This document shows, piece by piece, positions 31,025 to 36,127 of a stretch of 64,000 nucleotides of DNA. The DNA is from Ruminococcus champanellensis 18P13 = JCM 17042 (GTDB taxonomy: Bacteria; Bacillota; Clostridia; Oscillospirales; Ruminococcaceae), in the NCBI RefSeq assembly GCF_000210095.1, contig NC_021039.1:1046880-1110879 (forward strand). The letters are read 5' to 3'. Numbering within the stretch: the stretch's first letter is position 1; the number at the start of each line of letters is the position of its first letter. The notes below the pieces were generated by a model. It was given only the letters and a program-made list of their open reading frames with translations, was not told the origin of the DNA and did no database searches. Made by a program: the position numbers and the translations under genes.

Positions 31025-31321
31025 TTATACAAGGGCATCGTGGGCGGATTCTTCTGCTTCAAGCAGTGCTAGATGCTGGGAGTAAGCCTCCAGAATCTGC
31101 TGCTCAAACATCTGTCGGGCGGCAGGGGAAATGGGATGTACAATATCCCGGAACACGCCGCTTTCGTCCTTTCTGCTGGGCATGGCGACGAACAATCGCT
31201 CATCCCCCTGGACGACCTTGATGTCGTGTACGGCAAGCATGTTGTCCAGCGTAACGGATACTACCGCACGCAGCCTGCCTTCTGTAATGATCTTTCGGAT
31301 TTTGATGTCTGTAATTTCCAT
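31025..31321 (-). CDS. spoVG: Septation / RNA-binding regulator SpoVG
   Basis: 98 residues. MEITDIKIRKI, VSVTLDNMLAVHDIKVV, FVAMPSRKDESG and FRDIVHPI are the conserved SpoVG sequence. SpoVG is a small DNA/RNA-binding regulator involved in sporulation, cell division and envelope control in Gram-positive bacteria, also in non-sporeformers. AAGGAGGTAG precedes the ATG at 31321. It is divergent from murC. Confidence 0.96.
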   Translation of the reverse strand: MEITDIKIRKIITEGRLRAVVSVTLDNMLAVHDIKVVQGDERLFVAMPSRKDESGVFRDIVHPISPAARQMFEQQILEAYSQHLALLEAEESAHDALV

Positions 31322-31404
31322 GTGTGCTACCTCCTTATGTTGTACGGATATGTCTAGCATGGTGTTACAATGTGGTGTGTATACGATGCTCCCTTGTATT
31401 CTGT

Positions 31405-31467: not shown

Positions 31468-32892
31468 ATGGTTATTATGAATCTGAATATTTTAAATGGG
31501 AAAAAACATATTCACTTTATTGGGATCGGGGGCTCCGGTATGTATCCCCTGGCGCAGATTCTCCACAGCTGGGGCTATTATCTCACCGGGTCGGACAACA
31601 ACGAAACCGAGACCCTGGAGGCTGTCCGGAAGCTGGGGATCCCGGTGATGCTTGGACAGCGGGCAGAGAATATTGCGGGGGCGGATCTGATCGTCCACAC
31701 CGCAGCCATTATGGCGGACAATCCGGAGTTGATCGCTGCCAAAGCCAGCGGCGTACCGGTGCTGGAGCGCAGCGAACTGCTGGGCATCGTCACCTCCAAG
31801 TATGACAATGCCATCTGCATCTGCGGCACCCACGGAAAGACTACCACCACCTCCATGGCGGCGCAGATTCTGTTTACCGCCGGGGTGGATCTGTCCGCCT
31901 TCATCGGAGGCAAGCTGCCCTGTATCGGGGGCAGCGGCAGAGCCGGCAAAAGTGATATCATGGTATGTGAGTCCTGTGAATTTGTGGACACCTTTCTGAA
32001 GCTGTATCCGGACGTGGCAGTGATCCTGAACGTGGATGCGGACCATCTGGACTACTTCGGCACTCTGGAGAATGTGATCAAGTCCTTCCATAAGTTTGCC
32101 GAAAAGGCAAGCCGGACAGTGATCTACAACGGCAATGACTCCAACACCCGGAAGGCAGTGGAGGGCATCTCCGGCAAGGAGATGATTACCTTCGGCAATA
32201 CGCCGGACTGCGATTACTATGCGGCACAGGTGCAGCATGTCAGCGGCATGGAGACGCACTTCATCGCTATGCATCATGACAAGCCCATGGGAGAGATCGT
32301 GCTGCATGTAGCAGGGATTCACAACGTACTGAACGCCATGGCAGCCATTGCGGCGGCGGATCACGCAGGGGTTCCCTTTGATGCAATTCAGAAGGGGCTG
32401 TGTGAATTCCGGGGCGCAGGCAGACGCTTTGAAAAGGTTGCCCAGGTTGGGGGCATTACGGTGGTGGACGATTATGCACACCATCCGGCGGAGCTGACGG
32501 TGACGCTGAATGCGGCAAAGGAAATGGGCTACCGCCATGTGTGGGCGGTGTTCCAGCCCTTTACCTTCTCCCGGACAGCTATGCTGCTGGATGACTTTGC
32601 AAAGGCTCTGTCCATTGCGGATACGGCGGTGCTGACGGATATTATGGGTTCCCGTGAGAAGAATACCTACCACATTTTCACGCGGAATCTGGCGGAGAAG
32701 ATTCCGGGCTGCGTCTGGTTCCCCCAGGATGAAACCGAGGAGCCGAACGATACCCGGAAGTACCACAATTTTGACCAGGTTTGCGACTATATCTGCAAGC
32801 ACGCACAGCCGGGGGATCTGGTGATTACCCTGGGCTGCGGAGATGTATACAAGATCTCCCGGCGGCTTGCAAAGGAACTGCCACAGGGCTGA
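31468..32892 (+). CDS. murC: UDP-N-acetylmuramate--L-alanine ligase
   Basis: 474 residues, the first Mur ligase. The N-terminal HFIGIGGSGMYPLAQIL binds UDP, the ATP loop is CGTHGKTTTTSMAA, and the C-terminal domain contains VVDDYAHHPAEL. It adds L-Ala to UDP-MurNAc. The ATG at 31468 lies 5 bases after AAAGGA; the ATG at 31477 is an alternative. About 50 bases separate it from the LexA-like regulator gene. Confidence 0.96.
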   Translation: MVIMNLNILNGKKHIHFIGIGGSGMYPLAQILHSWGYYLTGSDNNETETLEAVRKLGIPVMLGQRAENIAGADLIVHTAAIMADNPELIAAKASGVPVLERSELLGIVTSKYDNAICICGTHGKTTTTSMAAQILFTAGVDLSAFIGGKLPCIGGSGRAGKSDIMVCESCEFVDTFLKLYPDVAVILNVDADHLDYFGTLENVIKSFHKFAEKASRTVIYNGNDSNTRKAVEGISGKEMITFGNTPDCDYYAAQVQHVSGMETHFIAMHHDKPMGEIVLHVAGIHNVLNAMAAIAAADHAGVPFDAIQKGLCEFRGAGRRFEKVAQVGGITVVDDYAHHPAELTVTLNAAKEMGYRHVWAVFQPFTFSRTAMLLDDFAKALSIADTAVLTDIMGSREKNTYHIFTRNLAEKIPGCVWFPQDETEEPNDTRKYHNFDQVCDYICKHAQPGDLVITLGCGDVYKISRRLAKELPQG

Positions 32893-32909: not shown

Positions 32910-32934
32910 GATTTTCCTGCATATGCGGAAAATC
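32910..32934. promoter_or_regulatory. Palindromic operator candidate before the LexA-like gene
   Basis: Perfect arms GATTTTCC (32910-32917) and GGAAAATC (32927-32934) flank a near-symmetric TGCATATGC. The 25-bp element ends 11 bases before the start codon, a position suited to autoregulation. Confidence 0.55.
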
Positions 32935-32945
32935 AGTGATGAATC

Positions 32946-33497
32946 ATGCTGAACGATCAGGCACGTGCAGTCTATGACTATATCAGACTGCGTACCGAAA
33001 CAGACATTCCGCCGTCCGTGCGGGAGATCTGCGCCGCACTTGGGATGAAATCCACTTCCACCGCACACCGTTACATCAATTTGTTGGTGGCGGATGGATA
33101 CCTGGAGAAATCAGGGAATCAAAACCGGGGAATCCGGCTCGCCGGAGGTCGGCCTTTGCGGATCCCGGTGGTATCCCGGCTGGATGGTACCCCGGAGCAG
33201 GCAGAAAGCTATGTTGCCTTTTATCCGCTGCCCCAGGGTGACACCCGATATGTGGCATGGCGGATGCCGGATGAGACCGGCTTGGCATACGGCATACAGC
33301 CAGGGGATCTGCTGGTGATCGGTCTGGGGACACCTCCGGCGCCGGACATGCTCTTGGTGTGTGCGGCAGAGGGAGAACCGGTGCTGACACGGGACACCAC
33401 AGGGGACTGTGTGGGCTTTGTGGCGGCAGTATGGCGCAGTATGCTTCCGGCACAAAATTTTTTTTCAGAACCCCTTGACAAAGCCGAGAGAACGTGA
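32946..33497 (+). CDS. LexA-like regulator lacking the self-cleavage residues
   Basis: 183 residues. The N-terminal winged helix (residues 1-66, QARAVYDYIRLRTETD, then PPSVREICAALGMKSTSTAHRY) is clearly LexA-like. The C-terminal part has the S24 fold signature GIQPGDLLVIG, but the catalytic Ser of the usual GDSM is not there (MPDETG at that place) and the catalytic Lys position reads PVLTR instead of a xVKR motif; the usual Ala-Gly scissile pair is also not seen. It should therefore not self-cleave and so should not respond to RecA as true LexA does. It is short of a good ribosome-binding site. Its 3' end carries the promoter of the T-box transcript. Confidence 0.82.
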   Translation: MLNDQARAVYDYIRLRTETDIPPSVREICAALGMKSTSTAHRYINLLVADGYLEKSGNQNRGIRLAGGRPLRIPVVSRLDGTPEQAESYVAFYPLPQGDTRYVAWRMPDETGLAYGIQPGDLLVIGLGTPPAPDMLLVCAAEGEPVLTRDTTGDCVGFVAAVWRSMLPAQNFFSEPLDKAERT

Positions 33498-33503
33498 TAT
33501 ACT
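33475..33503 (+). promoter_or_regulatory. Promoter of the T-box transcript
   Basis: TTGACA (33475-33480), 17-base spacer, TATACT (33498-33503) with extended TGA. The -35 lies inside the end of the LexA-like gene. Transcription should begin near 33510. Confidence 0.92.
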
Positions 33504-33509
33504 CATGTC

Positions 33510-33768
33510 AATGGCGATGACGAAGACTGCATCGGATATCATTTTGCGCAGAGAGCCGGCGGCTGGTGTAAGCCGGTGAAAATATACCGATTGCTGATCC
33601 CTTCCGAGCTGAAACCTGAACGGTGTAAACCAAGTAGGCGTTTCCGTTTTTGCTGCGTGAAGGCAATAGGCTTGTTGGAGCCGATGAGGGGCGCAATGCG
33701 CAATTTGAGTGGTACCGCGGGAACATATCTCGTCTCAAAGAACATGATCTTTGAGACGAGTTTTTTAT
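33510..33768 (+). promoter_or_regulatory. T-box leader, predicted isoleucine specifier
   Basis: All class I T-box parts are present: Stem I with the AG motif AGAGAGCCGG (33550-33559) and distal CTGGTG loop, the T-box sequence TGGTACCGCGGG (33710-33721), and a terminator of 12-bp arms (33729-33740 / 33749-33760) with six Ts. Stem I arms AUCGG (33531-33535) and CCGAU (33587-33591) pair, as do GAAG (33522-33525) and CUUC (33601-33604). The 9-base loop between them, 33592-33600, aligns position for position with the glyQS specifier loop and puts AUC (33597-33599, Ile) at the specifier. The UGGU in the T-box pairs with an ACCA tRNA end, fitting tRNA-Ile (A73). T-box presence is certain; the codon is inferred. 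Confidence 0.95.
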
Positions 33769-33814: not shown

Positions 33815-36127
33815 ATGGGAGCAAACATGGATCACGCAATCAAAGAGGTTGCAGAGCGTATTCGGGCTGTGCGGGAGGACGTGGGGCTTTCCGTAGAGGA
33901 AATGGCGAAGCGCACGGATGTATCCGTTGAGGAGTACAAGGCGCTGGAGGCAGGACAGAGTGACTTCAGCTTTACGTTTATTTACAAATGCGCCAAGGCA
34001 TGCGGCGTGGAGATCACGGATGTGATGGAAGGCGAAAGCCCCAAGGTAACCAGCTACACTGTGACAAGAGCCGGCAAGGGGCTGCCCATCGTGCGGCGTG
34101 AGGGCTTTGCCTATTACCGTCTGGCACCCCAGTTCCGTCACAAAATCAGTGAGCCCTTCTTTGTAAAGATCCCCTATTCCGAAGAAGCAATGGACAAGCC
34201 TTTGCATATGGCATCCCACGAGGGACAGGAATTTGATATCGTGGTCAAGGGCTGCATGAAGATCTATATCGGCGACCACAGCGAGATTCTCCACCCCGGC
34301 GACAGCATCTACTACGACAGCTCCACGCCCCACGATGAGGTTGCCATCGGCGGTGAGGACTGCGAGATCTACGCCATCGTTATGAACCCCAACGGTCAGG
34401 GAGGCGTGCCGGAGTATAAGGAGCATGTGCAGACCCGTGTGCTCACCAACGTGGACAAGGCTGGGCTGGTGCATCCGGTTGCAGAAAAGTTTGTGTCCAC
34501 CACTACGGATGAATTCGGGCATCTGACCGGTATTGAATACCACAACACCGACACCTTCAACTTTGGCTTTGACATCGTGGACAAGGTTGCGGAAAAGACT
34601 CCGGACAAGCTGGCAATGCTCCATGTGTCCAATGACTTTACAGAGCGCCGCTTTACCTTTGCGGATATGAAGCACTATTCCAATATGACCGCCAACTACT
34701 TCCGCTCCCTGGGCATCAAGAAGGGCGACCGGGTGATGCTGGTACTCAAGCGGCACTATCAGTTCTGGTTCTCTATCGTAGCTCTGCACAAGCTGGGTGC
34801 TATCGCAATCCCGGCAACCAACCAGCTGCTGGAGCACGATTATGTATATCGGTTTGATGCAGCAGGCGTCAGCGCCATTGTCTGCACCGGTGACGGGGAT
34901 GTAACCACCCACGTTGAGGGCGCTGTCAAGCAGTGCAAGTCCGTTAAGACCCTGATCTGCACCGGCGGACCTCGTCCGGGCTGGCATGATTTCGACGGAG
35001 AGCTTCCTGCATACAGCGACAAGTTCGAGCGGACGGAGGATACCTCCTGTGGTGATGACCCGATTCTGATGTTCTTCACTTCCGGCACCACCGGCTACCC
35101 GAAGATTGCAACCCACAGCCACAAGTATGGTCTGGGGCACTTCCTGACTGCAAAGTACTGGCAGAATGTAGATCCCAATGGTCTCCACTTCACCATTTCC
35201 GACACCGGTTGGGGCAAGGCACTCTGGGGTAAGCTGTACGGTCAGTGGATGAATGAAGCACCGGTATTCACCTATGACTTTGACCGGTTCGACGCAAACA
35301 AGATCCTGCCCATGTTCGCAAAATACCACATCACCACCTTCTGCGCACCGCCCACCATGTTCCGTTTCTTCATCAAGGAGGATCTGTCCAAGTTTGATCT
35401 GTCTTCTCTGAAGTATGCGGTGGTTGCCGGTGAGGCACTGAACCCGGAGGTATACAACCGGTTCCTGGAGGCTACGGGCATCAAGCTGATGGAGGGCTTT
35501 GGTCAGACTGAAACCACCCTGTCCATTGCCAACTTCGTAGGGGATTCCAATAAGGTCGGCTCCATGGGCAGACCCAGCCCCCTGTACGACATCGATATCG
35601 TGCTGCCGGACGGCACACCTGCAAAGCCCGGTGAGACTGGTGAGATCGTGATCCGCACCGACAAGAAGGTTCCCTGCGGCTTGTATCTGGGCTATTACAA
35701 CAACGAGGAAAAGACCAAGGAAGCATGGCACGATGGTGCTTATCACACCGGCGATACTGCATGGCGGGATGAGGACGGCTACTTCTGGTATGTGGGTCGT
35801 GTAGACGATCTGATCAAATCCTCCGGCTACCGGATCGGACCCTTCGAGATCGAAAGCGTTATCATGGAACTGCCCTATGTGCTGGAGTGTGCCATCACTG
35901 CTGCGCCGGACGAGATCCGTGGCCAGGTGGTAAAGGCGTCCATCGTTCTGACCAAGGGTACGGAGGCTTCTGAGGCTTTGAAGAAGGAGATCCAGAACTA
36001 CGTCAAGGAGCATACCGCTCCCTACAAGTATCCGAGAATCGTAGAATTTATGGAGGAGCTGCCCAAGACCATCAGCGGCAAGATCCGCCGTGTAGCACTG
36101 CGGGAAAGCAGCGAAAAGCAGAAATAA
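33815..36127 (+). CDS. XRE-cupin-acyl-CoA synthetase fusion protein
   Basis: 770 residues in three parts. Residues about 8-75 are an XRE helix-turn-helix (AERIRAVREDVGLSVEEMA). Residues about 115-195 are a cupin (GQEFDIVVKGCMKIYIGD, HPGDSIYYDSSTPHDEV). Residues about 220-765 are an AMP-forming acyl-CoA synthetase: P-loop FFTSGTTGYPK, GFGQTET, TGDTAW, GRVDDLIKSSGYRIGPFE, and the C-terminal acceptor Lys in SGKIRR. It should activate a carboxylic acid to acyl-CoA, with an attached regulator or ligand sensor. The ATG follows AAAGGA by 9 bases. Control by the T-box just upstream links it to an amino acid. The substrate is not visible from motifs; medium-chain, branched-chain or aryl acids are open. 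Confidence 0.92.
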   Translation: MGANMDHAIKEVAERIRAVREDVGLSVEEMAKRTDVSVEEYKALEAGQSDFSFTFIYKCAKACGVEITDVMEGESPKVTSYTVTRAGKGLPIVRREGFAYYRLAPQFRHKISEPFFVKIPYSEEAMDKPLHMASHEGQEFDIVVKGCMKIYIGDHSEILHPGDSIYYDSSTPHDEVAIGGEDCEIYAIVMNPNGQGGVPEYKEHVQTRVLTNVDKAGLVHPVAEKFVSTTTDEFGHLTGIEYHNTDTFNFGFDIVDKVAEKTPDKLAMLHVSNDFTERRFTFADMKHYSNMTANYFRSLGIKKGDRVMLVLKRHYQFWFSIVALHKLGAIAIPATNQLLEHDYVYRFDAAGVSAIVCTGDGDVTTHVEGAVKQCKSVKTLICTGGPRPGWHDFDGELPAYSDKFERTEDTSCGDDPILMFFTSGTTGYPKIATHSHKYGLGHFLTAKYWQNVDPNGLHFTISDTGWGKALWGKLYGQWMNEAPVFTYDFDRFDANKILPMFAKYHITTFCAPPTMFRFFIKEDLSKFDLSSLKYAVVAGEALNPEVYNRFLEATGIKLMEGFGQTETTLSIANFVGDSNKVGSMGRPSPLYDIDIVLPDGTPAKPGETGEIVIRTDKKVPCGLYLGYYNNEEKTKEAWHDGAYHTGDTAWRDEDGYFWYVGRVDDLIKSSGYRIGPFEIESVIMELPYVLECAITAAPDEIRGQVVKASIVLTKGTEASEALKKEIQNYVKEHTAPYKYPRIVEFMEELPKTISGKIRRVALRESSEKQK

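Follow-up and report, generated by a model that had tools for sequence, protein, structure and literature searches.

The only LexA protein encoded by the complete genome of Ruminococcus champanellensis 18P13 = JCM 17042 has lost both its cleavage site and its catalytic dyad, and probably works as a repressor that is insensitive to DNA damage. In general, autocleavage of LexA is regarded as what triggers the SOS response. We consider it likely that the gene described here is a lexA orthologue devoid of RecA-triggered autocleavage, which would nevertheless still repress a small residual regulon. The loss seems to be recurrent in the bacterial family. The gene lies in a stretch of 64,000 nucleotides that was analyzed as a whole, hereafter the window (NC_021039.1, positions 1,046,880 to 1,110,879). 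Three species of the genus with a degenerate LexA were sampled, designated G000 (the window's own genome), G001 (its sister) and G002, and alignments were built from a first set of 29 and then from 121 homologues, all belonging to the same family.

An open reading frame with a LexA-like N-terminal domain had been reported at this place in a first-pass annotation of the DNA, and its coordinates are exact (Table 1). The first 62 residues match the Pfam family PF01726 (LexA_DNA_bind) at 32.5 bits, above the cut-off of 23.7, and column statistics across homologues show that the nearly invariant columns of the recognition helix are retained in the 183-residue protein. Its top matches in the PDB are LexA repressors, and the similarity lies mainly in the N-terminal half. 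TIGR00498, the equivalog model for lexA, aligns with residues 4 to 90 only, at 41 bits for a cut-off of 110.95; we therefore class the protein as an orthologue of derived type rather than as a functional equivalog. As for the C-terminal half, PF00717 (Peptidase_S24) gives no match in Pfam even at an E-value of 10; in a canonical relative, the corresponding half scores 117.7 bits against this family. Profile comparison by hhalign with the C-terminal domains of canonical LexAs yields a probability of 95.5% (E 1.6e-8, 100 columns), which disfavors a wholly unrelated domain. A profile search of the PDB with the degenerate domain returned matches at chance level only (UmuD at E 1.5), and an AlphaFold model computed from a two-sequence alignment was discarded (pLDDT 36). 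We therefore assign the domain only tentatively to the S24 fold, a kinship recognizable by profile comparison alone.

Table 1. Features of lexA and its surroundings in the window
Feature	Position	Strand	Basis
murC (UDP-N-acetylmuramate-L-alanine ligase), upstream neighbor of lexA	31477..32892	+	Pfam Mur_ligase domains, order in relatives
Inverted repeat GATTTTCC-N9-GGAAAATC, between Shine-Dalgarno-like GGAGAGGAG and ATG	32910..32934	+	Sequence; once in genome
Degenerate lexA orthologue, 183 aa	32946..33497	+	ORF, PF01726, TIGR00498, single LexA-type gene in genome
Residues 1-68, LexA winged-helix DNA-binding domain with nearly invariant S-T-S-T recognition-helix stretch	32946..33149	+	PF01726, dN/dS, column statistics
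Residues 69-165, degenerate putative S24 domain lacking the cleavage site and the Lys, deletion of about 22 aa just after the Lys position	33150..33440	+	Alignments, hhalign, dN/dS
Thr111 codon, catalytic Ser position (Ser in sister G001)	33276..33278	+	Alignments
Thr148 codon, catalytic Lys position (Leu in G001)	33387..33389	+	Alignments
Residues 166-183, C-terminal tail overlapping downstream promoter	33441..33494	+	Alignment, dN/dS, promoter
Promoter TTGACA-17-TATACT (11/12), over lexA 3' end and stop codon	33475..33503	+	Pattern; conserved in L007

In the family alignments, the canonical motif G[ED]SMINAGI aligns with PDETGLAYGI, which puts Thr111 in the column of the catalytic Ser, and the canonical EATVKR (ATVKRF) aligns with EPVLTR, which puts Thr148 in that of the Lys. 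The first-pass annotation had read an MPDETG segment in place of GDSM and PVLTR at the Lys position, and both readings agree with the alignments, save that the sister species G001 still carries a Ser in the first column, with a Leu in the second. Loss of the Ser is therefore not genus-wide, whereas neither the Lys nor the cleavage site survives anywhere in the genus. Indeed, the cleavage motif VTAG(-P) of canonical proteins has no counterpart in the 183-residue protein in these alignments, in keeping with the earlier remark that an Ala-Gly cleavage pair was missing. An Ala-Gly is found at residues 66-67, in the linker; this is not the pair that is cut, since canonical relatives often carry AG here as well as at their true cleavage site. 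Moreover, all three species of the genus have lost about 22 residues after the Lys position, where relatives read FYKENGHFRLQPENDxMEPI. A C-terminal tail of 18 residues, absent from G002 and from canonical LexAs, has been added; the first-pass annotation had mentioned neither this tail nor the deletion. The last strand of the domain, GFVAAVWRS, is kept, and we take it to be the strand of the LexA dimer interface. The degenerate state is common to three species, and purifying selection constrains the DNA-binding domain strongly, which argues against a chance pattern. Judged by its sequence (no Lys, no Ala-Gly and a truncated catalytic domain), the protein should not be a RecA-inducible SOS repressor, in agreement with what the first-pass annotation had proposed.

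The two halves of the protein have evolved under different constraints. Relative to the orthologue of a Ruminococcus sp. MAG (L007, 77% identity), dN/dS is 0.068 for residues 1-68, close to the value of the neighboring murC (0.052). It reaches 0.31 for the core of the C-terminal domain (residues 85-165, 74% identity between the two species) and 1.28 for the 18-residue tail, where dS is low (0.195). Identity to canonical homologues follows the same partition. Among canonical proteins the C-terminal domain is the better conserved half, with a median identity of 0.59 versus 0.44 for the N-terminal domain, whereas the order is reversed when the window's protein is compared with them (0.21 versus 0.48). 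Together, the dN/dS values and this contrast indicate that selection has continued to act on DNA binding and has weakened, without disappearing, elsewhere. They strongly support a functional DNA-binding domain, degeneration being, to judge from these comparisons, confined to the C-terminal domain.

The gene follows murC on the same strand after a gap of 53 bases, and murC lies directly upstream of lexA in most of the family genomes inspected. Further upstream, on the opposite strand, is a SpoVG gene (31025-31360, minus strand). A search of the complete 2.57-Mb genome with TIGR00498 detected the 183-residue gene and one CI-like XRE-S24 protein, and nothing else, from which it follows that the genome has no second, canonical LexA. 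The first-pass annotation had described the protein as a LexA paralogue and advised looking for a canonical lexA elsewhere; the search yields none besides the CI-like protein, and the conserved murC-lexA order and the status of sole LexA in a complete genome identify the gene instead as the lexA orthologue. The CI-like protein has intact catalytic residues and is encoded beside a double-XRE protein (L002, 1480-2118 and 830-1480, respectively), a pair that is possibly part of a mobile element. The genome also has a recA gene, in the arrangement prmC-recA-recX-like (names of the flanking genes were read from the ORFs).

Candidate operators were assessed by pattern search and in selected genome stretches, using the LexA box consensus of Bacillus subtilis, GAACN4GTTC (PMC4234289). 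The clearest site is a perfect box, the identical 12-mer GAACATATGTTC, present in G000, G001 and G002 at the same position of the promoter of a gene encoding a sigma-70 region-4-like protein. It lies within about 12 nucleotides after the -10 element (promoters TTGACA-17-TATACT, with TATACT or TACACT across the three species) and has been kept while most of the other sequence around this promoter changed. In each species it covers the position at which transcription is predicted to start. The gene itself (98 aa; L181 4496, L186 4292, L271 2031) is divergent from a CIRCE-type htpG promoter, and an Orn/Lys-decarboxylase-like gene lies downstream of it. In relatives with a canonical LexA, the box GAACRTAYGTTC stands just after the -10 element of promoters of Y-family polymerase genes (L278 of G035, L292 of G110); this shared box and position make it credibly the LexA operator of the family. 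One conserved promoter thus supports the retention of a LexA-box target in the degenerate genus, although the box could belong to some other regulator that binds palindromes.

No LexA box is found upstream of the Y-family polymerase genes of the three degenerate species. Upstream of recA, the box is absent in nearly all relatives, canonical or degenerate, so its absence in the degenerate genus says nothing, and recA was not used further to gauge the loss of SOS control. Neither the lexA promoter region nor any other part of the window contains a box, even with one mismatch; lexA is therefore probably not autoregulated through GAACN4GTTC. In relatives with a canonical LexA, lexA genes with their own promoters often bear AACRTAYGTT-like sites, in keeping with the Gram-positive consensus. 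Genome-wide, GAACN4GTTC is not enriched in G000 (49 occurrences versus 62 in a reversed control). The stricter form RAACRTAYGTTY shows modest enrichment in G000 but none in G001 (observed versus control: 11 versus 3 in G000, 5 versus 5 in G001 and 5 versus 1 in G002), several of the sites falling inside ORFs. G037, another genome with a degenerate LexA, has 27 such boxes (L245-L270) for 2 in the control, the highest number among 198 genomes; most of them are inside ORFs, and they were not retained as evidence of a regulon. Finally, five copies of GAACN4GTTC are crowded into 106 bases of the gap that separates two type IV pilin genes of G000 (L060 4129-4234; G000:C1:398628-398733), some 120 to 215 bases before the promoter of the second pilin, for a chance expectation of about 2e-11; no such cluster was listed for G001.

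These observations fit best with the following scheme. The LexA winged helix, intact and constrained, would let the protein bind GAACN4GTTC as a dimer that is presumably held together by the remnant of the C-terminal domain. It would thereby repress a small residual regulon, of which the 98-residue sigma-70-region-4-like gene is the clearest candidate target. Activated RecA should be unable to remove this repressor, because the dyad and the scissile bond are missing. Uncleavable LexA mutants are known, and we infer an absence of RecA-triggered cleavage from the lack of these residues together with the precedents of such mutants and of the LexA of Synechocystis. Derepression, if there is any, might come from changes in the level of LexA (for example if it is cotranscribed with murC), from degradation by other proteases, or from a modification or a new signal.

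Other accounts of the same gene have to be weighed against a repressor of a residual regulon that has escaped RecA. In line with a suggestion of the first-pass annotation, the C-terminal domain could have been repurposed as a sensor, in which a ligand, a redox state, phosphorylation or a partner protein governs dimerization and hence DNA binding. The constraint still acting on the core of the domain and the retained dimer-interface strand are compatible with this, and phosphorylation has been proposed to tune the non-cleavable LexA of Synechocystis (PMC7567884); but no pocket, conserved charged cluster, partner gene or fold match was identified for the domain, and dimerization alone could account for its constraint, so we regard a sensor as rather unlikely. 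A bolder extension holds that LexA was repeatedly converted, in gut Ruminococcaceae, from an SOS repressor released by damage into a permanently DNA-competent regulator whose C-terminal domain is a new sensory or dimerization module controlling the sigma-like gene and here, possibly, type IV pili through the five-box array; this we find speculative and unlikely.

The gene might conversely be decaying toward a pseudogene that does little, as the long branch of the C-terminal domain, the 22-residue deletion, the run-on tail overlapping the next promoter and the SOS polymerase genes without a box would suggest. Such decay is hard to reconcile with a reading frame that is open in three species, with an N-terminal domain constrained nearly as strictly as murC, and with an operator retained at one orthologous promoter in all three, and it appears very unlikely. 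Even less probable is an SOS-type switch that persists by another route, with a housekeeping protease, say, or a distinct peptidase activated by damage to remove the repressor. Removal by a separate peptidase has a precedent in Deinococcus, where IrrE/PprI cleaves DdrO (PMC10904395), but no IrrE-like gene was noticed beside lexA, and recA and the Y-family polymerase genes have no box.

Loss of catalytic features extends beyond this genus. Ala-Gly, Ser and Lys are all intact in 106 of 122 homologues of the family; five others have Cys-Gly, a substitution reported to permit cleavage (PMC3789691), and one is a fragment. The remaining ten, distributed over six genera, lack at least one catalytic feature: three come from the window's genus and the others from five further genera (G179 and G092, G030 and G140, G037, G100, and G137), the sole change in G137 being Lys to Arg. 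The degenerate LexAs of these five genera (L012, L169, L090, L123, L171, L173 and L096) are each the only LexA match of their genome. Two of the genera with a degenerate protein also hold a second species with an intact one (G144, G023). Parsimony counts four changes on the all-column tree and five on the tree of the N-terminal domain, of which well-supported branches force only one and two, respectively. The full-length tree groups seven of the ten degenerate sequences, in a part that is prone to long-branch attraction; this weakness and the coexistence of both states in two genera led us to disfavor a single origin. Several independent losses are thus likely, though not proven.

Non-cleavable LexA is already known from Synechocystis sp. 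PCC 6803, whose protein lacks the Ala-Gly bond and the catalytic Ser, keeps its DNA-binding function, and is held to be no longer an SOS regulator (PMC3091678, PMC7567884). In that protein the bond is replaced by Gly-Gly and the Ser by Asp, and it controls other pathways through other sites. The present protein has instead a catalytic domain that is degraded throughout, with no Lys and with a deletion, and it apparently keeps the classical Gram-positive box. The novelty lies in how far the decay has gone, in its likely recurrence within a single gut family, and in a promoter at which the classical box was retained. We found no description of a non-cleavable LexA in Ruminococcaceae in the open-access literature. 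Canonical LexAs of Bacillota (B. subtilis DinR/LexA; L011, L016 and L030) are orthologous to the protein and share its winged helix and, apparently, its GAACN4GTTC-type box, with the murC-lexA order in relatives of the family, but the protein differs from them by the missing cleavage site and Lys, the Thr in place of Ser, the shortened S24 domain and a predicted lack of induction by the known mechanism. A LexA-homologous DNA-binding domain also works without the protease switch in gp6 of phage GIL01 (PMC6182141). That protein, however, is a truncated phage product acting as a transcriptional activator in a host that has a normal LexA, unlike the present sole chromosomal LexA, which retains a C-terminal domain in degenerate form. 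The LexA-like protein IrvR of Streptococcus mutans (PMC7101444) is likewise freed from RecA control; it is, however, of CI-like origin and keeps the Ser-Lys dyad, absent here, for constitutive self-cleavage. With its apparently repeated losses, the family offers a natural series for asking what is gained by dropping damage induction while keeping the repressor. For such species, annotation by the name LexA can mislead, and SOS-dependence can be wrongly predicted for the prophages and the resistance of gut bacteria.

The sequences that border lexA have features of their own. The arms of the inverted repeat upstream of the start codon are identical in G001, and the fold of the region is not unusually stable (z -1.0). 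This palindrome was rejected as an operator, since a core that occurs once in the genome cannot be the site of a regulon; it is likely an RNA hairpin, which may bring a distant ribosome site near the start codon. At the other end, the 18 extra residues look like a by-product of promoter overlap (33441-33503), and the low synonymous divergence of the tail is explained by conservation of the DNA of the strong promoter. A T-box leader follows (33508-33760, plus strand; RF00230 at 90.7 bits for a gathering threshold of 93, E 1.4e-20), with a terminator at 33729-33760, and precedes an ORF for a 770-residue XRE-cupin-AMP-binding ligase (33815-36127). Its specifier, read off the alignment, is AUC (Ile) and is conserved in L007. 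An isoleucine T-box ahead of an acyl-CoA ligase is an unexpected pairing, which a 2-methylbutyrate-activating enzyme feeding isoleucine synthesis would explain.
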